From positions 9,338,001-9,402,000 of the forward strand of contig OX940863.1 of NCBI GenBank assembly GCA_954871525.1: 64,000 nt of DNA, in the 5' to 3' direction. This document shows, piece after piece, positions 22,884-60,459 of this stretch. A model generated the notes under the pieces. That model was not told the DNA's origin. It was given only the letters and a program-made list of their open reading frames with translations, and did no database searches. Source of the stretch: Parietaria judaica. Lineage: Eukaryota; Streptophyta; Magnoliopsida; Rosales; Urticaceae. How positions within the stretch are numbered: position 1 is the first letter of the stretch; every line of letters starts with the position of its first letter. The translations under genes and the position numbers were made by a program.

Positions 22884-22886
22884 GTT

Positions 22887-22904
22887 TGGCGCCGTCTGTG
22901 GGAA
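22887..22904 (+). other. Primer binding site
   Basis: TGGCGCCGTCTGTGGGAA begins three bases after the 5' LTR. A PBS starts with TGG, complementary to a tRNA CCA end. The first nine bases match the PBS I recall for tRNA-Asp-primed plant elements, but the rest differs, so the exact primer tRNA is unresolved. Confidence 0.75.
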
Positions 22905-22947
22905 ATTGATCTCGCCGACATCCACGAGCTCGAAGCACTTCGCAAAC

Positions 22948-25490: not shown

Positions 25491-25496
25491 CAATTA

Positions 25497-28400: not shown

Positions 28401-28772
28401 ACACCCAGCCTTCGAAGGGAACACGCACCCTTGAACGCAGAACTCAACGACGAAATGAGGGAAGATCAGCTCGACCACATCGACGAAAGACGAGAACAGG
28501 CTTTGATAAGAATTACCAACTATCAAAACTCGATAGCAAGGTATTACAATTCAAAGGTCAAACGTCGGAAATTTATAGTGGGAGAGCTGGTCCTCAGAAA
28601 AGTTTTCCAGAACACCACCGAGTTAAACGCGGGTAAGCTCGGGGCCAACTGGGAAGGACCTTACATCGTCACTGAAGTAGTAAAACCTGGAGTATACCGG
28701 CTAGCCACTCCGGAAGGAACAAGAGTCCTCCGGAGCTGGAATGCCATGCACCTGAGGAAATACTACGCCTAA
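25497..28772 (+). CDS. Retrotransposon pol: reverse transcriptase, two RNase H domains, integrase
   Basis: This 1091-residue frame is fully open. The reverse transcriptase has VNRMFAEQLG and the catalytic YIDD at residues ~244-247. Its own RNase H follows (around residues 370-500). A second RNase H starts near residue 522 (LEVDGASNQGG, Asp 526; Glu in NETEYEAL near 564; HSDSKLV). This archaeal-type extra RNase H is a Tat marker. The integrase has the HHCC zinc region (ending CDKCQRHS) and the catalytic triad near Asp 812 (MDIVGPFP), Asp 872 (ADNGPQF) and Glu 908 (GNGQAEVANR), with 35 residues between the last two. The C terminus ends around LRSWNAMHLRKYY. All catalytic residues seen are intact. 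Confidence 0.95.
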   Translation: MSVEGKEEDGQERTADTDGPNLEMTVQVQIDPDNPDHRVGIGKGLDNNVRKELLKFLTKNRDCFAWSHKDMPGIDPSIATHRLNLDPSYKPVKQKRRKLGPDRAQAVNEEVTKLLQTGSIREVKYPDWLANTVVVKKKNGKARVCIDFTDLNKACPKDSFPMPHIDRLVEATCGHELLSFMDAFSGYNQILMHPEDQEKTTFITDRGTYCYKVMPFGLKNAGATYQRLVNRMFAEQLGKTMEVYIDDMLVKSSQATDHVAHLEECFAILRKYQMKLNPTKCTFGVTSGKFLGYLVTQRGIEANPDQIKALQDMPSPRTVRETQRLTGRIAALNRFISRATDKCLPFYKLLKGNKKFEWIEECEEAFQKLKRYLSAPPIITRPILGEPLFLYLAVSPSAVSGVIVIEDRGEQRPIFYISKSLEDAETRYPAIEKLALAMITAARKLRPYFQSHTIMVMTTQPLRIILHSPNQSGRLIKWAVELSEFDIEYKIRTCAKSQVLADFLIELPADGSKEGHEDGEWRLEVDGASNQGGYGIGIRLISPTGEVLEQSFRLKFHATNNETEYEALIAGLKLAKAVGAQRIRAHSDSKLVTSQISGEYATRDDRMEKYLSVVKGLIQQFDHVEIIQIPRSENASADALAGLASTSNPEVKRIIPVETIDEPSVTREVYNIQIEEDDWRTPIVNYILTGAKPQDKQKARKLRIQSARFFIIGGKLYKRSYTGPYLRCLGKTEAQIVLHEIHDGECGNHSGGRSLANKAKRQGFFWATMLADSEAYARRCDKCQRHSPSIHRPAEELSSVSVSYPFMKWSMDIVGPFPLAPAGKRFILVVTDYFSKWVEAEAYANIRDVDVENFIWKNIICRFGLPKEIIADNGPQFISTRFQNFCINWKMSLNTSTPRYPQGNGQAEVANRIIVDGIKRRLDTKKGRWADELIGVLWSYRTTPRRATGETPFSMVYGTEAVIPAEIETPSLRREHAPLNAELNDEMREDQLDHIDERREQALIRITNYQNSIARYYNSKVKRRKFIVGELVLRKVFQNTTELNAGKLGANWEGPYIVTEVVKPGVYRLATPEGTRVLRSWNAMHLRKYYA

Positions 28773-28949
28773 CCCGACCTACCCGGTCTCCCATGAACTA
28801 CGTAATGACTTGATCCCCAAATATGGGGTACGTAGGCAGCCCGTCTTACCAACGGGCACAGTCTCAATCCAAATCCAAACCAAATCGGTCCGACCTTCAT
28901 TAAGTGTAAACTCTGAAGATTTGCATTATCAAGGTAAAAATATCTAAAC

Positions 28950-29222
28950 ACTTTTCTAAGGCAACAAGCCTACCGGGTAACAGACCCACTCTCTAAAGGC
29001 CAACGAGCCTAACCGGGTAACAAACCTACTTTTCTAAGGCAACAAGCCTACCGGGTAACAAACCCACTCTCTAAAGGCCAACGAGCCTAACCGGGTAACA
29101 AACCTACTTTTCTAAGGCAACAAGCCTACCGGGTAACAGACCCACTCTCTAAAGGCCAACGAGCCTAATCAGGTAACAAACCCATCAACTTAGGCAACAA
29201 GCCTCGCCGGGCAACAAGCCCA
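28950..29222 (+). repeat. 78-bp tandem repeat in the retrotransposon 3' region
   Basis: A unit beginning ACTTTTCTAAGGCAACAAGC recurs at 28950, 29028 and 29106, a spacing of exactly 78 bp, and decays after about 3.4 units. Each unit is itself two diverged ~39-bp halves, one with GGCAACAAGCCTACCGGGTA and one with GGCCAACGAGCCTAACCGGG. Tandem arrays between pol and the 3' LTR are known in Tat elements and can seed satellite DNA. Confidence 0.9.
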
Positions 29223-29713
29223 CTCCATTAAAATTATTTATACTAATCTTCGCAAATAGACTAAAAGTCTACGAGCATATTCATTATCAAGAAACGAAAC
29301 TTACGGACTACCACGAAGACGAGTAGAGATGATCGACGAACAGACAGAGAGGAGAATAAGAAGAATAATGAATTCACCTCAATCACTAGGTAAACTACCT
29401 TCTTTCATACTTAAGAAACTTTTATAATCTCTTTTATAATTTCGTATAAGTCTATCAATCTATATGCTGCTCCTAGCCAATCTTAGCCGTTATCAAGGAA
29501 GATCGTAAAGGAAATTAACTTAGAAGAAAGCTAGCATTAGAAACAAAGGAATCATTCAAAGAAAGAAAAATAGCAAAGGCCCTAACCACGGGCATATCCA
29601 AACCATACAAAAAAGGGTTCAAGCCGCCGTAGACTTGCCCATAGAAATTGTTCTGGCCTTAGGCCTTATTTAGCTAAAAAAAAAAATAAAAAAATAAAAA
29701 ATGGGGGACCGCT
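29223..29713. other. Retrotransposon noncoding region between tandem repeat and antisense gene
   Basis: About 490 bp with no open frame of note. An A-rich run lies at 29676-29700. It probably holds the 3' UTR of the antisense gene and part of the element's own 3' region. Confidence 0.5.
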
Positions 29714-32391
29714 CTATGCGTCAGCCCCGAGTACATCTGCGATATCCTCCTCATCATTTTTCTTCTCTCCGGTCATATCTTCTTGCAAGGCGGGCTCCCC
29801 GGTCACGACCTCTTCGGCTGCGGGTTCTTCAAGGGCAGGCTCTTCAGGGACGGGCTCCTTAGCGACTTGCTGCTCGGACCGGGCACTTTGATCTGCAAAG
29901 GAAAGCTCGGTCAAATCTGCATCAGGAGACATGGCCGGAGACCCTATCATCGGTATCGGTGTCCCCTCCAAGATAGCCTTGTAGCGGACAACGTTGCCTT
30001 CTAGGACCTCCTTCTCGGCCTCAAAGTCAGTAACCTTGCCATCAATCACATCCTGGACCAACTCGAGGCAACCTTCGGCTTGGTCCAAACAGCAATTATC
30101 GGCAGCCGTACCTTTGTACCAGTCAATCATCGCGTCCCTCTCTTTCACCCTTCGGCGATAACGGGAACGGATAGCATTTTTCTCGACCTCACGGTCAAGC
30201 GACTGCTGCCGGGCCTCCGCCAGCTCAGAGATGAGGCGCTGCACGTCCTCCTTTAAAACCGTCGCCTCCTCCTCCTTCTTCTTGGCCACTTCCTCTGCCC
30301 GTCCTCTTGCCGCATCGGAAGTTAGCACCTCCCTGACGGCCGCATCTCTCGCCTTATCGGCCTCCTCCACCAACCCGGAAGCATTTTTTAGCTTCTCTCT
30401 GAGATCCTCGACCGTGTTCACGAGGCCCTTAATCCTAGATTCGGAAGAAGTTATCTTCCGACCCATCGTCAGTAGCTGATCGGCCTTCGCCCGGATAGCC
30501 ACCACGGCATCCGCCAGTTCCCTCTCTTTCAACGCGAGCTGCTCGGCAGCTTGCGCCCCCTCCTTCGCCTCCTCTAACTGGTCCTCGTAATCGAGAACCA
30601 TGTCGTTTATGGTCGCCGTGAGCTACACGTCAAAAATAAAAAGTATAAAGTTAGAAAATTTTTGACAATCAGCAAAACTTGGGCAAATAAAAGATTAACG
30701 GAGACTTACGTGAACAGTCATAGCCGACACAGCCTTGTAGATAGGCTTCTCAGCAATAGATCTCGGAACTCTGCCAACCCCGCCATTCGTAATTTGCCGG
30801 AGGAGCCCGGCCGCGACCTTAGGCGCCTTGTGGAGACCCTTGTCCCCGTACCAAGTGCACCCGACCTTGCGGGTAACCTCTTTCTCCTTAGCTTTACCCC
30901 CGATCACGAGGGGAGCCGATCTCATTTTCTCCCCAGTCTTGCCCTGGGAGACCTCTCTAGGGCGCTCAGCTTCGTGAGCAACCTCTTTCCCTTTGGCCTT
31001 CTCGGGGACCCTGACCACTTCTTTCGGGGCCGAGTTACCCCTCGCCTTCTTACGGGCTTCAGAATCTCCCCCCTCTCGCGGCCGCTTCACCACGGCATCC
31101 GAATCCGCCCTAGGACGGGCTGCATCCTGAGAAGGACGAGTCGAATCCTTGGAAGGATGGATAGGAGCAGGAGGGGGAACATCCCTCTTTTCAGAATTCT
31201 TCGCCACAGGCGTGGCGTCCGGAGTATTATCGCCGTCATCAGAAAGCACTACTACGGACTGATCCCCTGCCGTCTGCACGGCAATATCAGCAGGAGCCTC
31301 CTCAGCAGGAGCCTCCTCGACCTTCTTCTCCGTCTCTTGACGGATAGCTCCATGAGCAGTAACGGTCGTGCCGGCATGGGCCTCAACTCGTGGAGCCGGG
31401 CTAGACGTACCCGCCTGCTCCTCCAACTTCCTCCTCGCCCGAAGGCTCAAACCCTTAGGACGAGCAGCTTCCATTTCCTCTGCACATCCAAAAACCACAC
31501 TTAGGCAGAAATCAACAATATTTAACGGAATGCTTAGAAAAATAGACCTTACCCGGAAGATCGGGAGCGTTGTTATCGTACGCGATGAATTTCTCCTCTT
31601 CTTCCTCGGGCCACAATCCGACGGACTCAAGCCTCTCCCGAGTAAATGACGACCACGGCTCGGGACCAAAAGGGAACAATTTCTTCTTCAAAGCCCTCCA
31701 CTTGTCAGTGATAGGAAGAGACTTAGGCTTCTTAGAATTTTCAGCTGCATAGAAAAAGAAAAAAGAGTATTAGCAAACTTGTCAAAAAATCCGAACAGAA
31801 AATCTCGCCAACCCAACCCGGAATCTCACCTATCTCATGCACCCATACGTTCCTGTAGCCCGGCCAAGATCCAAGTGTCTCCTGACTGGCTAGGAAAAAG
31901 AAATACTTGTGGGTCCAAGCACTTTCTTTCTTGGGAATACCAACAATGATCTCCCCTTCTTTAACGGATAGAAAAAACCTACCCTTAGCCTGACCATTAG
32001 TCTTGACGACCAAGCCCGTCAACAAATCTTCGAGTGTAAGTGTATGCAAACACTCGTGAGCCCGGACAAGCAAGGCCGTCAGGATCCTAAACGAATTAGG
32101 ACTAAATTGCCCTATAGAAACCCCTAAGTAAGAAAAATATTTTAGGATAAGCTCGAAAATAGGAAATCTAAGCCCCCCGGATTCAAAGAACCTTTCATAT
32201 ACACAAATCCACCCGTCTATATTTTGCTCGTCAGCATGTTCATCTGAACCCGGCAATCTGAGCGAGATAGACTGCGGGATATTATATTTTACCCGGATCC
32301 TAGTAAGATCCTTAGGCTTTAGAACAGACTTAGGAGAGTCTGTAGCCAGAAACTCCGTTTGCCATTTATCAGTTGCCTTTTTAGGACCCAT
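29714..32391 (-). CDS. Antisense gene of the Tat element (putative gypsy-type transposon protein)
   Basis: Four minus-strand exons, 32391-31830, 31744-31553, 31479-30710 and 30622-29714, join in phase through GT-AG introns to give about 810 residues. Exon 1 carries the plant family called putative gypsy type transposon (the GGLRFPIFELILKYFSYLGV segment and SPNSFRILTAL). Exon 3 is a long Ala/Glu/Lys/Arg-rich, probably disordered region. Exon 4 is a predicted coiled coil of ~200 residues (EEAKEGAQAAEQLALKEREL and on), ending in repeated ALEEPAAEE-like phrases. The function is unknown; such antisense genes are found in some Tat elements. Unlike gag, this gene shows no stop or frameshift. Confidence 0.78.
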
Positions 32392-33173
32392 TTCCTGTCT
32401 AGAGAATCCTAGAAAAAACCGAAAGATCTAAACCAGTACAAAAATCCAGGAAACTACCCAGAAACCAACAAAGAGGACAGAAAAGCAAATCCCAGAAAAA
32501 CCTCCTAGCAGACCCTCAGAAAACAAAAGATAATAGTTAGAAAGAAAACTAGAACCTGAACTTCCTAGGAGTTCGATGAAGAAGACGAAGAAATGGACCT
32601 CGGAGCACCTTCGATGGCGGTTCGAAAAGTTTATATCTCTAAAAACTCAAAGCTTTTCTCTCTCTAAAATTCGAAAATGATATTCGAATGCGAAACACGA
32701 TATATATGGAGGAGAGAGAAAGAAGTTACCTTCGACAAGACGCGTGACGGGCAGAAGCTGAAGAGACGTGCCCATTAAATGCGAAACACTTGAGTATTTA
32801 TACTCGAAAACCGTCGCTGATCCTACGGTTAGGGTTTCCTCGAAAATCGCAACAAATCTCATCCTACGGTTGAGATCAGCGAGCTATCCGGCGATACGTC
32901 AGCATGACAGTTGTATCAGGAGAATGTGAAGGGTTTATTTTCTTCGAACTCCGCAAATAGGGACACGTGTCATAACTGTTCCCGCCTAAAATTCGAAGCG
33001 ACAGTTACAGCTTCAAGGTCCTACTCGTCCATCGTATCTCGGAATTATCCAAAAATCCTGCCCGGAATATGCAGATTTGTGGCAAAAGTTACAGATTTAA
33101 TTAATTCTATCCGGTACGAATTTTACATGATTTCATCGAATATATACTATAAAATTTACTTCGTATTTTTTAT
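32392..33173. other. Retrotransposon region upstream of the antisense gene
   Basis: This ~780 bp lies between the antisense start codon and the polypurine tract, and should contain the antisense promoter and 5' UTR. On the minus strand the CT-rich stretch around 32645-32720 is notable. No other gene is seen. Confidence 0.45.
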
Positions 33174-33187
33174 AGTAGGGGGTTGAC
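33174..33187 (+). other. Polypurine tract
   Basis: AGTAGGGGGTTGAC lies immediately before the 3' LTR. The G run in a purine stretch is the expected plus-strand priming site, although the last bases are not purines. Confidence 0.65.
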
Positions 33188-34045
33188 TGTTGATGTACAA
33201 ATTCGTCATTATTTAATATGACATAAAGTACTAAAGTCGTGAATTAATTAAATCCACAAACAAAGATTGAAGGCTTCAAAAGAAATAATTCGATATTCAC
33301 AAAAGCCCAATTGAGAAGCCCACTAAAGCTCTCAATCAGACAAAGCCCAACGGATACAAAGCCACTCGGCCCAAAAGGCCCAAAGGCCCAATATCTATCT
33401 GTCATCAACCCAGAAAGACAAGGGTATAATCGTCATACTCTCTACCCGGCCTCTCATTTCAAACCCAAGCGAAAGACTAGAAGTACGAAGTCAAGTCTTC
33501 AACGGGCATAATTCAAACACGACGAAGAGAACGCAGTCGTGGGACACGTGTAGCAAGGCAAGCCATTCAACCCGTTCAGCTCGGAAAGACAACCCCACGA
33601 TTCTTGGAAGTCCAACGGGAAGAATTGAAATCTATAAATATCAAGCTCAAGCCCAGATCAAAGGGGAGATACGCATACACCATCTTGAGAGAATACATCG
33701 AAAGTTCCTACTCGGCATTCTTGCTCACTTAGAGAGATTTTGTTGTATTCTTTGTTCCCTTTTTCATTCTTTTCTTTTATTCTAGACGTAATTTGCTGCC
33801 TGTAGCCATCCGTCTATGCTATCTGTCGCAATAAACTAACAGAGGACGTAGTCAACTACCGCCTTGGGACGAACCTCTATAAAAAACCACTCGTCTCATT
33901 TATATCGCTTATATCTATATACATATATCGAGAGTGAATCGAGAGCTCGCAACGTGAGAGATCGAATTCCACAATATCTTAATTCAACAAATATCATACA
34001 CTCACAAGTCACACTGACTGTTTGAAGTGGGAAACCACGTCAACA
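33188..34045 (+). repeat. 3' LTR
   Basis: This is the second 858-bp LTR, with the same ends as the 5' copy. The five differences I see are C to T near 33400, C to T and G to A near 33478-33481, A to C near 33709, and C to T near 33983. It is followed directly by the right CCAAT target duplication. Confidence 0.95.
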
Positions 34046-37109: not shown

Positions 37110-40100
37110 ATGGACCAACAGACGGAGGAAATGGTTAATGTAGCTAAGAAGATTGTGGAAAATGTTAATTGGATGACTTTTGAGAATATGGATGAGCAGC
37201 AAATGCACTCGATTAAGAGGATTCGGGAACTTGCTTGGGGCATTGTGAATAACAATAGCGAAAAGGTGATCGTCTGTTTGAGTTTCCTTTAGAAAAAAGG
37301 TCTGTTTGAATTATACGTTCGTCAAATTGCGTAGTATGATCAACTGTTAACTGTATCTCACAGGTTATGAAGAATGGCGTGGTCGGTAACATGTCCTGTA
37401 GCATTGAGCAGATGGTAAGCAATGTTTCCGTATGTTGTCTAGGTATCTCGTTTGACTGATTGTAGTTAGAATTTAGATATGATTTTGGGAGATGTGTACA
37501 ACGAACATTCATCTGTGCCACAATTGAAAGAAATTGTTAGAGTGATTATGCAAATGCCGTTTTTCATTAGCAGCACAACTGTTTTCAGTTCTGTGATGTT
37601 GGATTTTTGCAGGATTATGAAATTAGCACTGTGACGGTGGACAGTGAGGTGGCGTTCGCCATAGTTGCAAGCAACGAGACCGGTATCGTTGATGGGATTA
37701 AAGAGAAGCTATTTCCGACTGAAGTGATAGAGATGCCATTGGAGGTAGAAATTTATGACCAGACATCAAACTTGGGTGGTTATATAGTTGAAGAAGAGCA
37801 AAGTGTAGCAGTTGCTGTGGGAGAAACAAAACCGTGCAATGAGGTTCGGAATGGTCAAGAAGAAGGTCTCTTGTTTGAAAATATGGAGTTCGTTTTAGGC
37901 AGTTACCCTGCCTTACCGCATTCTGTTACGTGGCCTGCGGATAGGAAAATTGATTTCGATTGGGTGAAGAATTTGATGGACATACTTGAATTGGCTTCAA
38001 AGAAGATTTCACCATCAGATTTTCAGTCTATGATGCCTATTTCTGTGGTGGATGAATTAATCACTGCCGCTTCAAGTATCTTGTCCGAAGAGCCAAACTG
38101 TGTGAAAGTTGATTGCCATGGAGAGGATTCAAGAGTTGTTGTGGTAGGTGACATTCACGGACAATTCCATGACCTACTCAATCTTTTTGAGCTTGCCGGT
38201 TTTCCCTCAGAGAGCCAGTTTTATGTTTTCAATGGAGATTACGTAGATAGAGGAGCATGGGGTGTTGAAGTTCTTCTTGTCCTATTTGCTTGGAAGGTAA
38301 GTTAATACTCCCTAATTTGTATTATCATGCTTCAGTAAAAATATTGTATGACAATATAATTGCAATGGAATCACATGTTAAAGTTTTAGCTTTTGTACAT
38401 TTGTATGCTTCACTCATAGATTTAAGATTATAATTTTTAAAGTTTAGGAAAAGAATTGAGAATAAGAATAAACATTCATATAGTTATGACAAAGAAATTA
38501 TTAAAATGAAGAAGCAAAACTCTTAACTGCTATATATCTTATAAATGTTATAATTGATTTTATATACTAGTTATTAATTATTTTCTTCCCTACCAGAAGT
38601 ATTTATATGGTAAATTCAGAGCACTAGTTTTTATATAAAGTTGCTTGAACATATATTTCTTTCTTTAGGTTTTGTTGCCTGGCAGAGTTTTTTTACTTCG
38701 CGGAAACCACGAGACGGGGTATTGCACGTCGGTATATGGTTTCGAGAAAGAGATCAAGACAAAATACGGTGATCAAGGTGAAGTGGTCTACAAGAAATTC
38801 TTGGAATGTTTCAAAGAACTTCCTTTGGCCTCTGTTATCTCAAGTAGTGTGTTCACTTCTCATGGAGGGCTATTCAGAAGCATGAGTGTGGGCCCACTGA
38901 GAAGGTCTAAGAGAAAGATGGCACAGAAACTAGAGTTGGGCTCTCTAGAAGACTTATCGAAATTGAATAGACATTTTATAGATGTTGAATATGAAGACTC
39001 AAGTGCGTTAACTGATGTGCTCTGGTCCGACCCGTCAAAGCAAAATGGCCTTGCTGAAAATCCTTATCGAGGACTGGGTCTAATCTGGGGACCCGATTGC
39101 ACTGAGACGTTTCTCAAAAGATCCAACTTGAAGGTAAATACATTTAATTTACTGCATAATTTTGGAAAATTGTTCGTGAGATTCTTGGAGTTAAAGCTAA
39201 ATTAGGTAGCTGTATACATGAAATTCGTCTCTTTGCTCTATACATTTGCTTTTTCTTCGAGATTTATGCTTCTGTTTTAAAAGATGCTGTTAGCATGAAT
39301 AATTGAAATGTGTATATGTTAGTTTGTAAATTTATGTAGAATTAGTCATTGAGTAGTGTAAACATAGTCAATTTTCCTTGAATTCTAGGAAACTAGTTGT
39401 TTAAAAACGATCCAGTTTCGTATTTCATCAATCAAAAATACGTTCTATTTCTCAATCTCTCTAAACAAATTATAGAAAGCTAATAATTTTCTCTCGAAAT
39501 AGTTGATGATTCGATCGCATCAAGGACCCGACGCAAGGGCTGACCAAGATCATTTTGGGGACATGATGATTGGTTACAGCATGGATCATGCTGGAAATTC
39601 TGGGAAAACATTTACTTTATTTAGTGCTCCAAATTATCCACAGGTTTGCTTCTTACTCTTATCTTTTATTCTTAAGTAAATTTCCCCGGTTATACGTTGT
39701 ATACTTCATGCTTCTTCTACTAACAGAACATACAAATACAAGTCCATTTAACATGTTACTACACGAATTCCCTTTAGTTAAGTAATTCTGTTACAAACAG
39801 AAATATTGAATAATACCACAGATTGTTAGCAGTATATTATCCCGACTCTGTTACTGCTTTGAAAGTTTGAATATATTTGCAGTTTGGCGAAACAACGTAT
39901 GACAATAAAGGAGCATATGCTGTACTGAGGGCTCCGGATTTTGACAAACCGTCTTTCCATTCATTCAAAGCTGTTGAAAGACCAAAGGTGCGAATAGTTT
40001 GAAAACCCAATGATTGCTTCCTGGTAAAATGCGCAAGTTAATTTTATTATTATTATTATTATCTTTTAAATTAAGTTTATGAAATTGCCGGTACAGGTTA

Positions 40101-40510
40101 CTCCGTATGATGCCGATGACGCAGAAGGTGGGATTTGTGGCATCCAAAACGACTCGGTGTTAGTTGTAAGTAGCTTCTCATAGAAAATTATCTTTCAAGT
40201 TGCCATCAAGGCATAGCGTTGCGTAAGTATTTCCCCATTCACAGTAATCTTTCACTGATCGGTGCTTTTCTACATGCGAAAATAGCCTACAATTACGCTC
40301 AATGACTCTGCACCGCAAGCAACATTTCCAGAATTTGCTGATTTCGGCCTCTCGGAATCTCCTTCAACATGTGCTCCTTTGAGCTTCCCGGTAACAATAC
40401 CTGCTTTTTGCTCATTTCACCGTCATTCTACGAACGTCTATAACCTTCCGTATAACGATGCTTCCTGGTCCTCTCAATTTCAAATGCAGGCTTTCGATGG
40501 CGGCTTTTAA
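37110..40510 (+). CDS. PP7L: PP7-like Ser/Thr protein phosphatase, copy A (metal site intact)
   Basis: Exons 37110-37265, 37364-37414, 37613-38296, 38669-39133, 39503-39643, 39883-39987, 40097-40165 and 40286-40510 join in phase to about 631 residues, or ~598 if 40391-40489 is removed as a 99-base in-frame intron. The phosphatase motifs are all present: GDIHG (~248), GDYVDRG (~277), LLRGNHE (~309), SHGGLF (His ~362) and RSHQGPDAR (His ~458). The insert between HGG and GLIWGPDCTE, the [12 protein letters not shown] wording and SAPNYPQF are those of plant PP7. PP7L of Arabidopsis is nuclear and partners the mobile-domain proteins MAIN and MAIL1 (family knowledge). Residues 1-69 form a small module also found in copy B. 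The first methionine is placed at 37110 because the exon matching copy B's first coding exon has no ATG. Confidence 0.88.
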
Positions 40511-41415
40511 GGGATAGGCGCAGCGGAACAGTGAGGTTTGATTCCAAGTTAACGGAGACCGCTCAAATTTTCTGAAAATGTGAAGTTCTTACCTTATTTT
40601 GCCAATTTTTTGCTGTCCATATATGATATTATCATATAATTTTTTATACTAAAAAACATGTGTTTATCGCATGATGTGCAGAAGTGGCTAAATTTGTTTT
40701 ATATATGGGCTTTAGCTGCTTATCTTTTTTTTTTTTGGGTAAAAAAAAATCGAATGTCTTTTGAAACTTGTATGTAAATAGGTACAGTTTATGCATGCAA
40801 TATTTGTATCTAATTATTTTGCTTGGTTAGTAATTAGTATTATTTACTAAAAATCTTTGAGGTATAACCCAATTTTAAGTTGCACTTGCCCCCGGAAATT
40901 TCAATTTGAACGCAACACATGACTTGTTCGACAGTAATTTAATATATTTTATTTCGGTTTTATAAAACTTTCATCTTCACAATTTTGAATGACCGTACTC
41001 GTCGATTGTTCCATAATAGTTTACCAATATCATTCCAGATTGACGAAAAATACGTTTTGAGTAGAACTAAACTCGCGGTAGCAGTGAAAAATATTAACTA
41101 TTTTTCTAAGGCGTTAAGGATATTGATATTGCTGCTAAAAATTAACCTCACGGACATACAAAGTTCAAGGCTTCAGTTGTTGAAACATTCATAAATTAAT
41201 ATCATAAAGTTACACACAGAATAGCTTTCGGGTCGTCTCTCCGATGCAAAAAGCTCTGAGAATGCCACGCTAATCTCTCTCATCATCTTCTGCACAAAAT
41301 CACTTCACATGTCAAATTTCATTACAATTAACAGTCATTGAACTCGAAATTTACGAGCCGAAACGGAGGCGCCATCACAAGCACATCTAAACCCTGAGTT
41401 CGAGGAATATTATTA
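40511..41415. other. Convergent 3' region between PP7-like copy A and the mobile-domain gene
   Basis: The two genes end toward each other here, 0.9 kb apart. The region should hold both 3' UTRs. No further gene was seen; the open frame at 40985-41194 has no family resemblance. Confidence 0.5.
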
Positions 41416-43453
41416 CTACTCTAAAGTCTCACCATCATCGTTGTCCTTGATGTAGTAGTCCGCCCTCTTGCGCTTGGTGGTGCTCTTGCGCCTCCCGCTA
41501 GACTTGCGTGCCTCTCCGACAATGTCGACGAGACAGTTGTGTACCGAGCTCTTGATCTCGTCGAGTAGCTTCTTGTCCCGAGTTTCGATCTGCTCTGCAG
41601 CCACTGAATCCGCTAGGCTCGCGATTTCCTTCATCGCAGCGACCTGAAATTTGGGCATCAAACGAACTCATATTGGTTCAGCAATGGATAAACTCGATCT
41701 TTTATAACTAAAACTACGAAGAAGAAAAAAAAAACTGACCGTTCTCTGGAACTCGGACTCGAGAGTTTCAGGTCGTCCAACAGATACACGGGTAATTTTC
41801 TCGTACCACTCCATGTAGTCGCTTTCATCGACACCTTCCGCTTCTTCCAGGATCCGATGCCGACGGTCCAGCCACTCCTTAAGCTCCGATTGCAGCTTCT
41901 CATTGGCCTCGGTATCAGATTCTTTGCTCAGATCCACGCCTTCCTCAAGGGAGCGGATCTTCTTCTCCCACCGTCGGACTTTCCCGGGGATCGGCTGAGC
42001 CATGCCAAACTGCCTCAAGCAGCGGTCGGGCAGGTACCTCTCTGCTTTGTCGCAGCATATCAGCATGGTCTTTGATAACTTCAGGTCCAAGTTGTCTTTG
42101 ATGTAGTCGGGTACTACTGAAAGATCTAACTCCTTGTACGGAAGCCACTGGACCTGTATTTGTATTTGCGTATTAAACCGTCACGAAAATAGTAAGATTG
42201 TATGAGGATGGAATTACGTCAAATAATCTTTGCGTTAGAATGGACTTACATCGTTTGGTGCAAGACAATCCAAGGACTTGCGGTACGCTAGTAAACTGCT
42301 CGACGTTCTTGGACCGCTCTGCTTCCCTTTCCATCTACTAGCGAGCGGAAAGCTTCCTCTCCCTTCCTCGTTGATCTTTGGTTGGCCGATATTGAGGTGA
42401 TAGTAACTCCAACACTACGGAAACGACGCGAAAATACACCACTTTAAGGTAAAACAAAATCTGGGGTTAAACCGGTGTTTTGATTCTGAATTTTTACCAA
42501 TTCAAAACAAGAAATCAAAACTTTTATTCAAAGACGGAATTCAAAATTTAATTCCAGTTCATAACATGTAATGAAAGCAGTTTTTTAAAAACAGTTTTTA
42601 ATTGCATACCGAAAAGATAATTTTATTCAGGATTACGTACCTGCAACAAGGTCAATGAGCCACTAATGACACCCTGAGATTTGAAAGTAGCGTTCCCGAG
42701 AGTCCTGTACAGGATTGCCAGAGTCGCGGGTCCCCATGCGAATTTACCCGCCTCGTCGAAATTCTCAAACAGCGAAAGGTACATGATTGGGACTTTGTTC
42801 CCGGTCGTGGTCGAAAATATCGTGCTTCCCACAAGATACAGGAGATAAGCTCGGGTATACCGCTCCACAATCTCGTCCGGTGCGTCCTCGGGACACTTGG
42901 AGAAGCACTCCTTCAGCCACGTCAGCTTCAGCATCCCACCGTTCAGATCCTCTGGCGCTTTCCCAAGAAGGCTCTCGCACGTGGCGCTCGGCGATTCTGA
43001 AGTGGCGGTTATGACGGGTTTTCCGTCGATGGCAAGCCCGAGAATCAGCCCAACGTCTTCGAGCGTTATCGTCATTTCCCCGACAGGCAAGTGAAACGTG
43101 TTTGTCTCTCTCCGCCACCTCTCCACCAGCGCTGAGATCAGCGCGTTGTCGAGCGAGAAAGACGGGATCAATCTCAGGTACTTCAGGCCGGTTTTCTCGA
43201 TGAGCTCGACCTGCTTCGAAGTGAGCTTCCAGCTTTCCAACAACGAAGTGTGTTCGTGGCACCGAAGCGGGCCTCTCTCCTGCAATGCGTCGCGTTAAAA
43301 GCTCACCCTTAAAACAAAAACATCGAGTTTCAGACGGTTTTTTCCGAGACTTGGAATACGAACCTGACCCTCCCAAACTGCCGAAGAGACATGATTCTCT
43401 TGATCGTAGAGCACGGACTTGTCAACCGGTCCCGGATCCGTAACCGATCCCAT
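41416..43453 (-). CDS. Plant mobile domain protein, MAIN/MAIL1 type
   Basis: Five minus-strand exons, 43453-43364, 43279-42641, 42414-42250, 42153-41740 and 41643-41416, join in phase to 511 residues. The plant mobile domain covers about residues 30-350. It begins ERGPLRCHEHTSLLESWKLT, then VERWRRETNTFHLPVGEMTI, LEDVGLILGLAIDGKPV, a MYLSLFENFDEAGKFAWGPA segment, CWSYYHLNIGQPKI and APNDVQWLPY. The C-terminal part has MEWYEKITR and a basic KRKR end. Length and the lack of a fused phosphatase fit the stand-alone MAIN/MAIL1 group rather than the long PP7-fused form (MAIL3). Those Arabidopsis proteins are nuclear, keep meristems and genome stability, and silence transposons together with PP7L. A 5' UTR intron probably ends just before the ATG (TTTTTTCAG at about 43460). 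Confidence 0.87.
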
Positions 43454-45002
43454 CGCAGCTGAAAAAAACATACAAAAGTATCGATCATTATCTTCGTAAA
43501 ATTCTGCGAAAACATACATTTATAAGAGCACAGAATCGCTCAACAGGAAAATGGTGCAAGAACAATTGAACTCTATTTTCAGTCCAATTCTCAAAAATCG
43601 TGCGAAATCCCAGAAAAAGAAAAGAAAAAAAAAATCCACGAAAACGAAATCTAAAGAAAACAAGCTTCGTTTTTAAAAAATAATAATAAAGAGAATTAGA
43701 ACCCTAAACCCCAAAACCAAACCTAGCGATTTCAAATTCAAAATCAAAATCTAAGAACAGAACAGACGAAGAACTCGGTAAAGATCTGAACTTTGGCACT
43801 GCAAAATTCTCGATTTTTTTTTTTCTGGGTTCCATTGGACTCACATTACGTCACTTGCGAAGACGAAGGCCGACGAATTTCAAAGAGAAATTAAAGGGAA
43901 AAAAAGAAGAAGCAGCCATGGAAGTGGAATTGGACTTAACTGGAAGAGTTTTTGACTGCGAGCATGATGGGAATCTTGATTGATTCTGAGCTCGGGAAGA
44001 CCAGAGCGAATCCCTCCTCGCAACGACGACGTTTTGAGATGTCGTCTGCTTCCCAAACGCACTAGACTAGAGCTTCACGATAATATCTCGCAAAATAAAT
44101 AAATAAATTAAATAAAAAATAGAGAAGTGTGCGACTCTTTTGGCTTTGTGCGTGGAAAATAATACTGTGCGAGTTTGAAATTTTACGACTTTTTAAAGCT
44201 AATTTTGGAAAAAGGTGTATGAGGGCTAAATGTGCACATTGATAAGAGTTGGAGGGTCTAAAGTCTTAACTTTATTATAGTTTACTAGCGAAATTTGACT
44301 ATTAAGTAAAACACCATTATCACTAATTAGGCTATTTAACTAAACATGTTTTAAATATTTGATATATATATATATATTTTGAATTATTTGCATATTCGTC
44401 TCAAGTCTAAAATAATAAAACTTTATTTATACGTACCTGATTCTTAATACCGATTTAAAAGTTAATAGTGAGCTCTTTTTCTTCTTCTTCTTCGAAACCC
44501 TGTATTTGCTGGTCTCGAGATATTATTATCGAGTTTTACATGAATATTTCAAAATACTTTAAGTGACAAATAATATTACCGGTTTTAAATCAGTATCAAT
44601 ATTTATTTAAACTAAAAAAAAAAAGATGTGGAGATTAATTAATGTACCTCAAAAGACCAATTTTCGATTTCACCCTTACAAATTACAAAATAAAAATAAA
44701 AACCATAAAATAAATATAAATAATAATTATAATAATATAAAAAGCACATGTCACGTGCACATGTCCAACTTGTTCCTTCTCACTCAGTTGGCATCGTTCC
44801 GACTCCAAACGACGCCGCTTTTACGTCTTATCCCTTTCCATGTTGATCTATTAAAAGAGTCCTCAAAACGATCTAGGGTTTGAGGTCGTTTGCTCTCTCT
44901 CTCTCCGAGCCAAATCTCACATCGACTCTTCTTCAAAAACACACTCTCTCTCTCTCTCTCTCTCTTCAATTTCGTTGCTTGGCTTCATTGAGCGGAGCAG
45001 CC
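43454..45002. promoter_or_regulatory. Divergent intergenic region between the mobile-domain gene and PP7-like copy B
   Basis: This 1.55-kb region drives genes on both sides. On the copy B side, AAACGACGCCGCTTT lies at 44807, a telo-box (AAACCCTA, read on the minus strand) at 44874-44881, and a CT run of about twelve units at 44943-44967 just before the start codon, a candidate GAGA-type site for BPC proteins. On the mobile-domain side a CT/GA-poor leader and a probable 5' UTR intron are seen. No other gene is evident between them. Confidence 0.55.
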
Positions 45003-48000
45003 ATGCCTGCCGAAGGTGACTGATTTTACAGCTTTCGAATTGTTTCGTTTTACATTGCCAGCGACCGTAAAGACTCCATCTTTGAGATCAAACTCCGTGT
45101 TTGAGTTCTGGGCTTGATCGGTGTCTCGAAAAAAATATCTGGGTTTGGATTTGGAAGCTGGTTTTCGTACTCTTTGTTGCTTTTGAGAATCTGGGTGGTG
45201 TTTTTATTTATGTAAATAGTTCTTTGAGTTAGCTAGTGTTGAGAAACTGTTGTCGTTTGATCTGACATTGAGGCACTACGTTTTCTCACTAGTTTGACTT
45301 GGTAGAGTATACTCTAGTTCGACAATGGGTGATTGAGATTGTTTTATCGTTGTTAAGATGCTCTTGGCTTCGTTCATGTTGTAATGTAAATAATGCAAAT
45401 TGGATTGATTCGATCATGTATTTTGGTAACAGACGTGAACCGTCGGAAAGAGAGGGTGATCAATGAGGCGAGGAAGGTTGTGGAGAACATAAACGCGATG
45501 TCATTTGTTAATCTCGACGACCAGCAAGTGCATTCACTCATGACGATGAGAGAAATCGCACGCGGGGTTGTTAATAACAAAGTCACAAAGGTGAGTAATG
45601 TAATGGAGTCGGAGAATAGAATTTCGATTCTTCGGCGATAATTGGTTATATTTGGTTTTGTTGTGACTTAAATTTCGTGAACTTTTGCAGATTACTAAGA
45701 GTGATGTGAAGAAAGCTCTGTCCTCTAGTATCGATAAGATGGTGAGTTATGTTTGTTGGTATATAGAATTCAGCGATGACAAAAATCCGATCTCGACTAA
45801 GGATCTCACCAACCTTGAACATAATTTAATAATTGAAAACGACATAATTAAATAGTCCAAATAACATAATTAAATAACCATAATTACTTCTAAATGTTAC
45901 CCTTGTAACGATTCTATTTAGTTTTGCTAATTTGAATTTCCATTTGCGCAGGTGCTTTCGTGCAAGGATGTGAATACCATCTTGAGTAGGATACCTTGTG
46001 ATGGTATGGATGAGGAGCAGTTTCAATCGGTCTCACGGATGAAAGAGATTGCATCCACAATTGTTACTAGACGAGCTAAAGTATCAAGTAGCCGGCTACT
46101 CGAACCAGTATGGTGATAAGCGAGAATGTTTTTTGTTTATTCCGTTTAATTGTCGAGCAATATGATTCTAAACTGTAACTATGATTGCAGGCTTATAGAT
46201 CTACTGCAGAGACGGTAGAGAGTAAAATGGGGCTTATGACAGAAAACAAGGAAATGGATATGGGAGGACTACAAAGAAGGTTATTTGAATCCGAAAATGA
46301 CCCAGTGGGAAGAATCGAAATTGATCAGAGTGAAGGACAAGACATAATAATGATCGATGCATCGATCCCGGGAAACGGTAGTATTCAAGACATGGCAGTA
46401 AATGGTGGCAGCGGACTTCAGATTGCTCTGACAGAAGGAATGATGTTTGATGACGTGGAATTGGTGGTTGAAACCGACCTAGACGACCAGGCGATCGTTA
46501 ACAGAATGTCTGAACCGATAAACGACACCAGTCAGAATAAGGCTAAAAAGTTAGCCTTGGTGTCACCTCTTCGACTTTCTGTTGTGTGGCCTTATGATGG
46601 GAGGATAACCCTGGAGTGGGTCAAGGATATGATGGCCAAATTTGAGCTGTCTTCGAAGAAGGATCCACCTTCGGAGTTTTGGACTCTCATGGCGAGCGAG
46701 GTGGTGGATAAGCTGATTACCGCAGCTTCGAGCATCTTATCGTCAGAGCAAAACTGTGTGGAGGTTAATTGTCAGGAAGGTCAAAGCGTTGTCGTTGTGG
46801 GCGATGTGGAAGGGCAATTCCATGATTTGCTGAATATTTTTAGGGTTGCCGGATTACCATCTGAGGAACTGTTATTTGTCTTCAATGGGAATTACGTTGA
46901 CAGAGGAGCGTGGGGTTTGGAGGCGTTTTTGGTCTTGCTGGCTCTGAAGGTAAGATGACGATTTCGTAATTAATTTTATCGTAATGACTGCTTAGAATTA
47001 CTGTTGTCAGTCACCTATTGTATTAGGTTTAATTTTATTATAAATTAAATTATTACTTCATTTATGTTCTAGTTTAGGTTATAAGGGCTTTTTTTGGTAG
47101 TTTGTAATAATAGGGATTGAGTTTTCCTAATCTCTATATTAGGCGCCAATCCCAAGGGGAGACGCACATGAGTTTTGGCATAATGTATCTTACTTCTTTA
47201 GGGAGAGCTCGAAGTAATGGCCGCTAGGTTTGTGATTGGTTTTAATTTATTCAATATAAATCCTGAATTCATATCTTTCTTAGTTCCCGCCGGTTTATAA
47301 TATTGTAGCCCACAACATTCCATTAATACCCTATGGGTCTACCAGTAGAGTTTACGGTTTCGTTTTTTATTTATTTATTGGGTTTTTTTGGACTTGAGGG
47401 CGCGCTGGCCTCCTGATAAGTGCACTCGAGGTTTTTGTTTTTGTTTTCCTTCAGTAAATGTAACATTCTATTTGCAGGTTTTGATGCCAAATAGAGTCTA
47501 TCTGTTACGTGGGAATCACGAGACAAAGTTCTGCACAACCATGTTTGGTTTTGAGCAAGAAGTGAAGACCAAATTTGGTGAAGATGGAGAGATGGTTTAC
47601 CAAAAGTGCTTGGAGTGCTTCAAAGAACTGCCTCTGGCCTCAATCATCTCGAAGTGCGTGTACACAACTCATGGAGGACTTTTCCGAAGCACGCGTGTTG
47701 GACCGTTGCAAAGTTCAAAGAGAAAGAGGGCTTCAAATGTGGACTTGGGTTCTTTAGAAGAATTGTCGAAAGTCGAAAGAACCCTCATAGATGCTCCAGA
47801 TGGAGGTCTTTTGGCTGATATCCTCTGGTCAAACCCTTCGAAGGAGGACGGTCTATTTGAAAATGATGACAAACAAAGAGGTCTTTCGTGGGGTCCTGAT
47901 TGCACCGAAACCTTTTTGAAAGAATCCAATCTGAAGGTAAAATAGATATGATTATCATTTTGCTTTACTCGTTTTTTTTTTTTTGCATAATCTTTGGTGA

Positions 48001-51000
48001 TATCACTGTATTACTGTGATAGGAATGATGTTCGATTGGAAATTTCACTAATCAAGCATGAATCAGGACAACTAAAGACATAAATTACTAATTATTATAA
48101 AGATATAATTATTTAATTAAATAAGAGGTCTAAAAATTTGGTGGGCTGTTTTTCCGTTTTTGTATAGCTGATCATAAGATCACATCAAAGCCCCGATGCA
48201 AGGGCCGGTCAAGATGATTTCGGAGATCTGCTAAGTGGTTACAGTGAGGATCATGTTGGAGAATCAGGAAAACTTTACACTTTGTTTAGTGCCCCCGACT
48301 ATCCACAGGTTTTTGTTCTCGTCTCGTTCTTGTGTCTTTAGATATTTGGTCAATACATTTTTGCAAGTCTATTTGACATATCTTTGTGATCTGTTGTATA
48401 AATTGACAGTTCGGTGAACCGAAGTATAACAATGAAGGAGCATATGCTATACTGACGGCTCCGAATTTCGAGAATCCATCTTTCCATACATTTAAAGGTG
48501 TAAGACCACCAAAGGTAAGGTACACAAATTGTCGAGGAATATGATAGAACTCGAACTCGAATAGAGAACACCCACGAAAAAAAGAAGCCAATCGGGATTC
48601 ACCAAGCTGATGAATCCCGGAAACTTTCTTCCAAATCAACCGAAATTGCCTTTCCTTCAAGAGCAAGGCAAGGCAAAGACTCACAATCGATGCCATGTAG
48701 GATTAAACAACTTAATTTACGAAGCCTTAGACGCCTATATGATTTGGAAACCCAAATTAGTTACTAGTTTGGAAGTGACATAAATAACCTAAAGCTTAAA
48801 GACGATAAAAGGCTTAAAATTAAAATGGTGTGATTCTTGTTGTACCCCTTCCGTCCCGCCCCTGTATGTAATAATAAACCGGATGGTAGGGATTGATGAA
48901 TATCTTTTTTCTCTGGTATAATATTCTGTAAAGAACCTGACAATTTTTTTTTAAGGGAAGCTCATTCGAAGTTGGCACAACACTAATGGTTTTCTATTTT
49001 TCCATTTGTGCGCAGCTTACAGCATATGGCTCTTCTTCTTCTTCTTCTTCTCAAACTAGCTGTCCAGATTGGATGCTCTCGAAGGTTGACTTTGAGGCAT
49101 TGGGTATTTCAAACCCACCTTCATGGAGTGTTCCAATTGCCGACAGTACAGGCGGCACAAAATCTGTAGAAGTTCTGAGAGCCCCTTCTGTTGAAGGCTT
49201 GCCTCTGCCTTCAGAGTTACAGGTAAAACTAAATTTATGCAGTTGTATTGTCGGGATAGTGATAGGACCCAACATATAAACCAAGCACGAAACGAGGAAA
49301 TTTTATCGATAAACGTAAGCCTGCTCTCTATTCGAGAATTAGACTTGGAAAAGTCTCCCAATGTGGTTAAATAGGAAATTTCACTTATCAAACATGATGG
49401 CTAACCCTAACGGTGAGCGATTTATATAGTAGGCTTATACAACCTTATTAGACCAAGACCTGAAGTACCTAGAATACCCTTGATGAAAGTAAGTACAATA
49501 ACGGGTCTAACAAATTGATACTGTACTAAAAATCTTGATTTTGATGCAGGAGCCTCACATGGCTGCATTTGAGTATCTCTTCGAGCTTGTTGCTGGTTTG
49601 AAATATATGGTTTCAACTAGAGTGAGTTTGTAATTCGGTTCTTTTCCATTGATGTTTTTCTCCCTGAAAACATGTGAATTTGATATTTTTGTTACCGGCT
49701 GCTGATGCAGGCGAGTGAGAGCAGAGCACCCGAATCAGCTATGGAAGTGAGTGTCCCGAACGAAAATGAAGGAGAAATTGTTTTGAACGAAAACGAAGGG
49801 CAAAACGCTCTGGATGAGAGGGAACAGCAAAGTGCGTCAATTGAAATGGGAGAGTGCGAAGAGCAGAATGTTGTGGATGAAAAGGAAGAAGAGCCAGAGA
49901 TTCCGTCTGAGAAGGAAGAGAAAGAGAACGAGATGGAGACTGAAGAGGAAGGAAAAGGCGCAATGAATGAAACGCAAGGGCAAGATGGTCCGAGTGTGGA
50001 CGAAGAACATAACGTTGTGGCTGAAACGGAAGGACTAGATATTGAGACCGAAAAGGAGGAAACCGAAACAGAAAAAATGGAAATGGAGACCGAACAGGAA
50101 GAAACAGAGACTGGAAAGGTGGAAACAGAGACTGAGAATGTGGAAATGGAGACCGAGAAGGAGAAGGAAACCGAAACAGTGGAAACAGAAACCGAGAGAG
50201 AGGCTGAAGAGGAGGAATTGGAGACCGAGAAGGAAGAGGAGGCGGCAGTAAATGAGGAGGCCGAGAAGGAGAAAGAGGAGTCGTCAGTAAACGAGAAGGA
50301 GGCAGCGGAGGAGGAAATGGAGACAGAGAATGAGAAAGAGGAGGTGGCAGTAAATGAGAAGGAGGCCGAGAAGGAGGAAATGGAGGCCGAGAAGGAAACA
50401 GAGGAGAAGGTAGAAACGGTGTGCGAAACGGAAAAGGAAGGACAAGATGTTCGGAGTGGAAATGATGGTGAAAAAGAGGAAGCGCAGAGCGTTGCAGATA
50501 AGAAACGCGCAGAGGACGTTCCGAAGAAGAAGGACGAAGGGGAGAAACTAGCTGAAGAAGCTCCTACGGAGAAGGATGAGAGTGTTAAGGAGAAGAAACA
50601 AGAGGAGACGAACCTTAAAGGGAAGAAGAAGCATGCAGAAGAAGTTCCAAAAGAGAAGGAACATGGTGGGAATAAACAAGCAAAACAAGTTCTGAAGAAG
50701 GAAGACAATGATAAACTGGAGAAATCAGCCGAGAACGCTCCCGAGAAGAAGGAAGAGAAAGTGAAAAAAGCAGACGTTCCCGAGAAGAAGGAAGAGAAAG
50801 CGAGAGTGAAAAAAGCAGACCTTCCCGAGAAGAAGGAAGAGAAAGAGAAAGTGAAAAAAGCGGACCTTCCCGAGAAGAAGGAAGAGAAAGAGAAAACAAA
50901 AAAGCAAGCCGAGGAAGTTCCGAAGAAGAAGGAAGATAAGGATAAAGGCGAGAAACAAGCTAAAGACGTTTTGAAGGAGAAAGAAGAGAAGACTAAAGGG

Positions 51001-51222
51001 AAAAAACAAGCAGAGGAGGTTTCGAAGGAGAAGGAAGAGAAGGATCATAAAAGGAAGAAACAGACGGAGGATGTTCGGAAGCAGGAGAGTACTGTTGACG
51101 ATAAGGAAGTGAAAAAGACGTACAGAAAGGTCGGGAAGAAAAACCCGAACGAAGACGAGGCCAAAGTTGAAGAACAAGGTAAAGCGAAGAAGCACAAGAC
51201 GGAATCGAAGCCGAAAGAATGA
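45003..51222 (+). CDS. PP7-like phosphatase homolog, copy B (altered metal site, long charged tail)
   Basis: Eleven exons fit in phase: 45003-45015, 45433-45590, 45691-45741, 45952-46107, 46191-46949, 47478-47936, 48168-48308, 48410-48514, 49016-49222, 49550-49621 and 49711-51222, giving about 1210 residues. It is the paralog of copy A, with matching exon lengths of 51, 141 and 105. Two metal-site motifs are changed: GDVEG (~330) in place of GDxHG, and GNYVDRG (~359) in place of GDYVDRG. GNHE (~391), THGGLF (~444) and RSHQSPDAR (~538) remain. Residues ~707-1209 are a low-complexity tail, first Glu/Thr-rich, then Lys/Glu-rich with a repeated [14 protein letters not shown] unit, ending in basic [11 protein letters not shown]. 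The N-terminal module seen in copy A occurs twice. A structural or regulatory role is inferred; phosphatase activity is doubtful. Confidence 0.85.
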
Positions 51223-58895: not shown

Positions 58896-60459
58896 TCACT
58901 TCTTCCACCCAGCGGAGAGGCGACGGCCCATGAAATCAAAGCCATTTAAGTAGTCGATTGCCTGTTTAGCTATGACATCACACCAAAAACACACACAAAA
59001 AAAAAAATTAATCAACATAGAAAATAATTAAAAAATGATTTAAGGAATCATAGCAAGTACTTACCCCAACCATTGGTACTGAAGGAGACAGTTCCATGTT
59101 TAACCAAAACGTCAAAGTTCGTATCCACTTCAATTTCGATGGAGGAGATCTCGGAGCGAGGAATGCCGCAGTTGCTCACGAGATGGAAACGCAATTGCAC
59201 ATCACGAATTTCCATTCCCATGTTGTGAACGTATATGGAAGTGTTCTGGGAGTTCTTGATTTTCAGCTTCTTGGAGCGAGAGCGTGAAGTCTCCTCCTGA
59301 GCCCTCTTGCCCCTCTCCACTGAAAAATATATTGCATTAGTGCCTTTGGCCAATAATATTGTCACTGAGTATAAAAGGTTGGGACAAAAATGATATATTC
59401 TATTCTATTTCTTAATTCAACTGTACTGTACAAGATCTACCTTGTGCTGAAGCAATCTCAGGCCTTTTCACCACCATCGATTTGGTGAAGTAGTTGGCAC
59501 CAGGCCTTTTCACCACCATCAATTTGGTGAAGTAGTTGGCACCAGCATTTCCGACTACCGCATTGAGAGCTATACATACACACAGAACATAAAAATTACA
59601 AATACAACTAGTTTTTTTAGTTCAAAACCAGAAAACAACAGACAAAGTTAGATGAAAATTTGAATTACCAGTTAAGGAGGATGCGAATGAAATTGTCGCA
59701 TAGCGGACCGTGAAGGAGGTGGTGTTGATGGAGTTGATATCGCCGAAGGGGCTGAAGATACTCTCGAGACCGCTCTCGGTAATGTCGGAGCCCAGGGTCC
59801 CGGTGTAGATCGTCTTCGACTGCGAGGTCTTTTTTTCCATCTTCTTGGAGCCAGAGCGTGAAGTCTCCTCCTCCAAATCTCTCTTGCCACTCTCGGCTGG
59901 ATTTTATATTAAATTAGTAAACTGATATAAACTTCTTGACTGACTTAGGGCTTGATAGATTTCGTTCTTCGATTTAACATAGCTATATTTATCATATGAT
60001 TCATCCTGGCAATCGGCAGAAGCTAAATTCATCCACTCATCCTCAATCAATCCTATCGTATTCTATTTCATAATTCAAATTTCAATTTAATGTAGAAAAA
60101 AATGTGAGATCTACCTTGTGCTGAAGCATTCTCAGGCCTTTCAACCACCATCAGTTCGCTGTAGAACTCAGCATCAACATTTCCAGCTATGGCCTTGCGA
60201 GCTATACATACACACAGAACATACAAATTACAATTCAAAACCGGAAAACATTAGACAAAACTATATGGAAATTTGAATTACCAGATGAGGAAGATTCGAA
60301 TGAAATGGCCGCATAACTGGCCGTGAATGAGATGATGTTGATGGAGACGATTTCGCCGAAGTGGCTGAAGGTAAGGTTCAGGTCGCTCTCGGTAATGTCG
60401 GAGCCCAGGGTCCCGGTGTAGACCGTCTTCTGATCACGGTGATCATCAGATTGCGCCAT
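58896..60459 (-). CDS. Protein with three RRM-like modules
   Basis: Six minus-strand exons, 60459-60282, 60201-60115, 59896-59669, 59569-59441, 59319-59065 and 58969-58896, join in phase (all introns in phase 1) to 316 residues. Exon pairs 1+2, 3+4 and 5+6 each encode one module. The first opens KTVYTGTLGSDITESDLNLT and the second KTIYTGTLGSDITESGLESI, both RRM-like (an RNP2-type strand followed by helix 1). The third (SIYVHNMGMEIRDVQLRFHL) is more diverged but closes with AKQAIDYLNGFDFMGRRLSA, a typical RRM second helix and last strand. Aromatic residues of RNP1 are not well kept (AAISFES, ATISFAS), so RNA binding is possible but not certain. Exon 4 contains a 14-residue internal duplication (GANYFTKLMVVKRP, then GANYFTKSMVVKRP). 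No closer family was recognised. Confidence 0.75.

Follow-up and report, generated by a model that had tools for sequence, protein, structure and literature searches.

A 64,000-bp window of the Parietaria judaica genome (assembly GCA_954871525.1, 538.7 Mb in 87 contigs; contig OX940863.1, hereafter C5, positions 9338001-9402000) holds, among intron-rich genes and a Ty3/gypsy retrotransposon, two PP7-type phosphatase genes on the plus strand, A and B, on either side of a stand-alone plant mobile domain (PMD) gene, M, on the minus strand. The three genes are complete and fill window positions 37110-51222; another PMD gene, M2, follows shortly beyond the window's edge, and contig C10 carries the four genes a second time. 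Our preferred reading, in which we place about as much belief as doubt, is that this is a conserved cluster formed by tandem duplication, that it encodes subunits of a complex of the Arabidopsis MAIN/MAIL1/PP7L type, and that a helical module common to both gene families stems from a possible old fusion. The gene models, assembled manually with GT-AG junctions, are as follows (window coordinates).

Gene A, 37110..40510, plus strand: PP7-type phosphatase, 598 aa, 9 coding exons, start codon at 37110.
Gene A coding exons, plus strand: 37110-37265, 37364-37414, 37613-38296, 38669-39133, 39503-39643, 39883-39987, 40097-40165, 40286-40390, 40490-40510.
Gene M, 41416..43453, minus strand: stand-alone PMD gene, MAIL2-like, 511 aa, 5 coding exons.
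Gene M coding exons, minus strand: 43453-43364, 43279-42641, 42414-42250, 42153-41740, 41643-41416.
Gene B, 45003..51222, plus strand: PP7L-like phosphatase, 1210 aa, 11 coding exons, stop at 51222.
Gene B coding exons, plus strand: 45003-45015, 45433-45590, 45691-45741, 45952-46107, 46191-46949, 47478-47936, 48168-48308, 48410-48514, 49016-49222, 49550-49621, 49711-51222.

Genes A and M stand tail to tail, with their stop codons 905 bp apart. The gene models and Pfam agree on the layout seen in the initial annotation, two PP7-type phosphatase genes on the plus strand flanking a stand-alone PMD gene on the minus strand. The three-gene unit proposed there holds insofar as the three genes lie side by side; the unit itself has at least four genes, M2 (C5:9403738-9406365, minus strand) being the fourth, 14.5 kb past B, in the order A+ M- B+ M2-. 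Coordinates of M2 and of its C10 counterpart M2' are tblastn extents rather than gene models.

Both phosphatases match the Metallophos family PF00149 in Pfam (A, 110.9 bits; B, 90.4 bits for its first 749 aa), and PP5 chains are the top PDB sequences for each, the PPP catalytic domain being closest to the PP5 group. Aligned to PP5 structures, A keeps every metal-ligand motif (GDIHG, GDYVDRG, GNHE, HGG, and RSH), and B reads GDVEG (H to E) and GNYVDRG (D to N) with GNHE, HGG, and RSH unchanged; we presume the metal-ligand roles usually assigned to the motifs GDxHG, GDxVDRG, GNHE, HGG, and RSH. The C10 copies A' and B' have motif states identical to those of A and B, respectively. At the motif level, the earlier suggestion of one apparently active and one apparently inactive phosphatase was therefore right, with all motifs kept in A and two changed in B. 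In its metal-ligand motifs A has what marks an active-type PP7, and B is without catalytic residues, as is Arabidopsis PP7L by its published description (PMC11180769). PP7-type phosphatases have a characteristic insertion within the phosphatase domain (PMC8249667), and the alignments of both A and B carry insertions relative to PP5, which may include the diagnostic one. The two phosphatase domains are identical at 234 of 364 residues, most exon boundaries are common to both genes, and their DNA alignment is confined to exons save for one 40-base match. B differs from A in having an additional exon 4 and a different C-terminus.

B last exon, 49711..51222, plus strand: Glu/Lys-rich tail of ~500 residues, 30% E and 19% K, internally repetitive.

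Because this strand is purine-rich, the openness of the last exon is weak coding evidence; the frame is retained in the C10 copy, with minor differences in length.

The process of elimination and the state of the active sites, rather than a tree, make A probably PP7 and B PP7L-like, in place of the PP7L label initially given to both. A genome search with A as query (73 of 74 candidates scored, 50 exon-level matches; the counts are lower bounds) is headed by A, A', B, and B', at 60-96% identity in the longer exons, and other phosphatase matches reach 38-57%. The search thus found at least four PP7-type genes, all within the cluster or its C10 copy. Nicolau et al. (PMC7156037) detected PP7 in all the eudicots that they tested and PP7L in just some of them; given that the four cluster genes are so far ahead in the search and that A has kept its motifs, A is probably the PP7 of this genome. 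Identities were assigned at three other places (C7, C19, and C21), and further PPP matches lie on C1, C3, C4, C5, C8, C9, C10, C21, and C22. The C19 place is PP5, and that at C21:1091823 reads to us like PP2A. The phosphatase on C7, near a MAIL2-type PMD gene, was considered as a second PP7/PMD linkage and rejected; it is PP5, with 41 of 49 residues in one exon identical to PDB PP5. With an unverified AtPP7 sequence, A and B are closest to each other (64.7% identity), followed by A-AtPP7 (57.2%) and B-AtPP7 (56.8%). A point against the naming is that, in a quartet tree including this AtPP7 sequence, B pairs with AtPP7 and A with PP5 (support 0.87), so that neither naming is favored by it.

Gene M matches PF10536, the PMD family, over the full profile (336.5 bits, residues 61-416; Pfam). 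Among the PMD genes of its own genome, with which alone it was compared, M looks MAIL2-like, having the same residue in 145 of 213 exon 2 codons as the genes at C7:40272310 and C19:6379045, which we take to be MAIL2-type, in part from their top PMD score. The MAIN/MAIL1 label initially attached to M is not confirmed, and MAIN and MAIL1 have been called Brassicaceae-specific (PMC7156037). The genome has 44 exon-level PF10536 matches, including some tandem PMD pairs with no nearby PP7-type match. In an exon 2 tree of 11 of these, rooted on the MAIL2-type pair, M falls on one branch; M2 groups on the other with its tandem derivatives, which lie on C8, C19, C21, and C22, and this M2 group has a support of 94 (protein) and 97 (DNA). 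The tree leaves out broken or partial copies (e.g., C8:627443, C21:27768307, C8:29311167, and C8:29320740) and distant PMD genes (C3, C20, C22:3525621, C8:35137794, and others), and is unstable when some of the omitted genes are added; one included sequence, T_C22, has an internal stop. PMD copies near M2, with a synonymous divergence (dS) of ~0.3 in exon 2, lie at C8:622001-632000, C19:213001-223000, C21:27760001-27770000, and C22:2018001-2028000; those on C8, C19, and C21 are in tandem, and some of the copies have stop codons. As to the MAIL2-type genes themselves, the C7 copy has a PP5 gene as a neighbor at a distance of a few kb (C7 ~40266300-40273085, at the contig end), and the two kinds of gene are separated by ~200 kb on C19. 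Relatives of M and A were absent from a viral contig collection, as were relatives of M from prokaryotic genome contigs.

All four cluster genes are present again on C10, inverted, with similar spacing except for ~1.9 kb more between M' and B'.

A', C10:29222655-29225951, minus strand: copy of A, with a GC splice donor after exon 4.
M', C10:29219733 to about 29221763, plus strand: copy of M, C-terminal end approximate.
B', C10:29210031-29216250, minus strand: copy of B.
M2', C10:29201843-29204823, plus strand: copy of M2, tblastn extents, 5.2 kb from B'.

Matches between C5 and C10 run in order over window ~5.7 to 58.9 kb at 78-93% DNA identity. A and A' are identical at 575 of 598 aa (dS 0.070, nonsynonymous divergence [dN] 0.018), M and M' at 506 of 511 aa (dS 0.043, dN 0.006), and B and B' at 1158 of 1196 aligned aa (dS 0.044, dN 0.014). 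As dN is well under dS in each case, all three genes are constrained. The collinear recurrence of A, M, and B on C10, at a dS of 0.04-0.07, speaks against an assembly error, which had been raised as a possible source of the linkage. Comparable dS values in several other contig pairs (0.07 for M2 exon 2, 0.09 for the MAIL2-type C7/C19 genes, and 0.116, with dN 0.03 over 161 codons, for a pair of module-bearing genes on C3 and C20 described below), together with the occurrence of PMD genes in contig pairs, suggest that the C10 copy arose by whole-genome duplication. The T_C21/T_C8 pair, with a dS of 0.01, is below the other contig pairs and does not fit such an event.

The paralogues within the cluster are much older. 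The phosphatase domains of A and B have a dS of 1.48 (95% 1.08-2.36) and exon 2 of M and M2 a dS of 1.37 (95% 0.97-2.30), so the two ages overlap. We infer that a single convergent PP7/PMD pair was duplicated in tandem, which would account for the gene order, strands, and overlapping ages together. The notion that the cluster is an ancestral state is accordingly borne out in part: it predates the C10 duplication, its paralogues are old (dS ~1.4, near saturation), and the PMD and PP7 families share a tail module.

This module is encoded at the N-terminus of both phosphatases, once in A and twice in B, and is compared here with the exon that follows the PMD in PMD-C genes.

A exon 1, 37110..37265, plus strand: tail-like helical module, predicted helix-loop-helix, mean predicted local distance difference test score (pLDDT) 90.7.
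B exon 2, 45433..45590, plus strand: first tail-like helical module.
B exon 4, 45952..46107, plus strand: second tail-like helical module.
M last exon, 41416..41643, minus strand: C-terminal tail, in the same position as MAIL2-type/M2 tails and the most diverged of them, predicted as one long helix, pLDDT 78.4.

We built a hidden Markov model (HMM) on seven N-terminal modules, one from A, two from B, and four carried by the genes on C3 and C20, and searched with it 5814 reading frames (30 aa or longer) taken from the window plus 33 loci; some of these loci overlap, and they were picked largely for PMD genes. Besides the modules and the C10 copies, eight distinct places had E <=1, and six of the eight are PMD-C tails, in the exon right after the PMD. 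E-values were 5.5e-4 for the MAIL2-type tail of C19 (the C7 contig ends before its tail), 0.078 for M2, 0.14 for M2', and 0.28, 0.62, and 0.87 for tandem derivatives. The spliced MAIL2-type tail scores 22.1 bits, reached by 0 of 5000 shuffles (4098 reported, best 6.0), and the same number of shuffles never reached the M2 tail (16.4 bits; best 14.3) or the T_C8 PMD tail (13.8 bits; best 11.6). In a profile-profile comparison, module and tail score 36.0 with a probability of 94%, against 14.5 for the best of 200 column shuffles. We take homology of the module with MAIL2-type and M2 tails as established, and a PMD tail ahead of a phosphatase domain is what a fusion would leave after losing its PMD core. 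The gene pair at C3:34282001-34287000 and C20:26329001-26334000 has B-like N-terminal modules and a B-like C-terminal region, with no phosphatase match between them in the 5 kb examined; the module therefore also occurs alone.

Homology of M's own tail with the module is unproven, and early tests of it were weak; the match grew strong only once MAIL2-type and M2 tails were used. Shuffling M gave p 0.008. M's tail scores 5.6 bits, equalled by 50 of 4734 reported shuffles, and its seven pairings with the modules of A and B gave pairwise p from 0.015 to 0.77. A retrotransposon frame, the best other of 293 frames of at least 60 aa, scores 57 against 58 for M; the best single-sequence windows of M begin ahead of the tail (401-417); and its predicted single long helix differs from the helix-loop-helix of the A module. 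The reverse search, with a tail HMM, is weak: it gave E 0.05-0.17 for the C3/C20 modules and 0.4-1.4 for those of B and A, and two other frames (E 0.02-0.03) outranked them. As for the ages, a dS of ~1.4 is near saturation and the compared part of M/M2 exon 3 is saturated (55 codons, 31 identical residues); this saturation leaves room for histories other than block duplication.

On the preferred reading, an ancestral convergent unit, a PP7 gene (+) facing a PMD-C gene (-), would have been duplicated in tandem to give A+ M- B+ M2-, and the cluster later copied to C10, probably via whole-genome duplication. The encoded subunits would be the MAIL2-like M and M2, A with its catalytic motifs in place and probably PP7, and the PP7L-like, presumably catalytically dead B, which may serve as a scaffold in a nuclear complex. 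In Arabidopsis, MAIN, MAIL1, and PP7L co-precipitate, and misregulated genes and transposons are common to all (PMC7156037, PMC9899485); by analogy, M or M2 would associate with B, and perhaps also with A, in a nuclear complex for gene expression control and transposon silencing. The tail modules are candidate contacts in such a complex, docking between partners being their likeliest role. Their possible source is an ancient fusion of PMD-C with PP7, comparable to Brassicaceae MAIL3 and grape VvMAIL2.2; such domain fusion occurred at least twice in eudicots (PMC7156037). The initial annotation had offered this neighborhood as a possible source of the fused form; a direct origin here is not evident, because M is on the strand opposite to both phosphatases and a PMD-PP7 fusion would need an inversion. 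MAIL3-type proteins have PMD and PP7 in one chain; in the cluster they are encoded by separate genes on opposite strands. A bolder version, in which the PP7-type genes here trace back to a PMD-C/PP7 fusion whose mobile domain disappeared and whose tail alone was kept, the linked pair is ancestral in eudicots and the source of both the fusions and the trans-acting complex, and the tail is the mutual contact, we consider distinctly doubtful.

The module could instead be a general helical interaction module, gained separately by the two families or taken from a third, with no ancient fusion and with the adjacency of the genes unrelated to it. The C3/C20 genes, with their modules and B-like C-terminal region but without any phosphatase match within the 5 kb examined, are what this would lead us to expect. 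Set against it is the concentration of non-self places with E <=1 on PMD-C tails (six of eight), in DNA that was itself picked largely for PMD genes, and we judge it somewhat unlikely. The linkage could also be an accident, one or two of the numerous, mobile PMD-C genes having come to lie next to a tandem pair of PP7 genes, with the result simply carried along in the later duplication. PMD genes are plentiful enough for this (44 exon-level PF10536 matches, with tandem pairs lacking a nearby PP7-type match), PMD stretches examined elsewhere in the genome (5.8-20 kb each) likewise contain no PP7-type match, the linkage counts as one independent event, the C10 copy being a duplicate, and dS dates the pairs loosely, with one M/M2 exon saturated. 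Chance placement nevertheless has to accommodate the finding that all four PP7-type genes found with A (a lower bound) sit in the cluster or its copy, that strand pattern and overlapping ages suit block duplication, and that a common module links both families by sequence; it is in our view rather unlikely.

A last alternative would make M a transposon-borne PMD or a decaying duplicate and the cluster functionally meaningless. PMDs are known in gypsy elements (PMC5418596), and one such element lies at window 22026-34045. M is outside that element, has five intact exons, and is kept in the C10 copy (506 of 511 aa; dN 0.006 vs. dS 0.043); it is thus no PMD embedded in a transposable element, and this alternative is very improbable.

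Around and between the genes, several features were recorded.

M/B intergenic region, 43454..45002: 1549-bp spacer separating the start codons of M and B, which are divergent.

This region is a possible shared promoter. It contains CACGTG at 44752-44757, the core of a near-palindrome at 44742-44764, and the leader of B has a telomere-box match (44874-44881). A published instance of the DOWN motif (CATGCAGTTT) had no match in the cluster at <=1 mismatch; the whole window had six matches at that threshold, versus 4.9 expected. A sigma-70 promoter scan was set aside as inapplicable to plant DNA. The gypsy element at 22026-34045 has long terminal repeats 99.4% alike over 858 bp and extra antisense frames, and probably inserted after the duplication, because the matching place on C10 is empty. 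Window ~59000-64000, between B and M2 on C5, holds a gene that we take to encode an RHD3-type GTPase; in 50 kb of C10 this stretch had a single 380-bp match, out of order.

The mode of action of PMD complexes and the role of PP7L have been called unknown or obscure (PMC8616336); the cluster and the common tail module make both the action of these complexes and PMD-C/PP7 fusion concretely testable. In the open-licence literature searched, by title, abstract, or excerpt, no paper was found to describe PP7 genes linked to PMD genes or a tail module common to both; Xu 2019 and de Luxan-Hernandez 2020 lie outside that scope.

Among known systems, the MAIL2-type genes on C7 and C19 are, like M, PMD-C-like with a comparable exon 2 and, in the C19 copy, a module-matching tail; unlike M, they have no PP7-type match in the DNA examined there, the C7 phosphatase gene being PP5. 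A and B differ from Arabidopsis PP7 and PP7L in being extended at the N-terminus, with one tail module in A and two in B; AtPP7 is not known to have any. They resemble the Arabidopsis proteins in a PP5-related domain with insertions relative to PP5, and B resembles PP7L in being without catalytic residues (PMC11180769). As in MAIL3 and VvMAIL2.2, PMD-C and PP7 are physically associated in the cluster, and A and B have a PMD-tail-like module before the phosphatase domain; here, in contrast, the genes are separate and on opposite strands, and the PMD core is absent from A and B (Pfam). Like the Arabidopsis MAIN/MAIL1/PP7L system, the cluster has a PMD-C protein that stands alone and a PP7-type phosphatase whose catalytic motifs are broken; it differs in that M looks MAIL2-like, the genes adjoin, and a motif-kept PP7-type gene belongs to the same cluster (PMC7156037).

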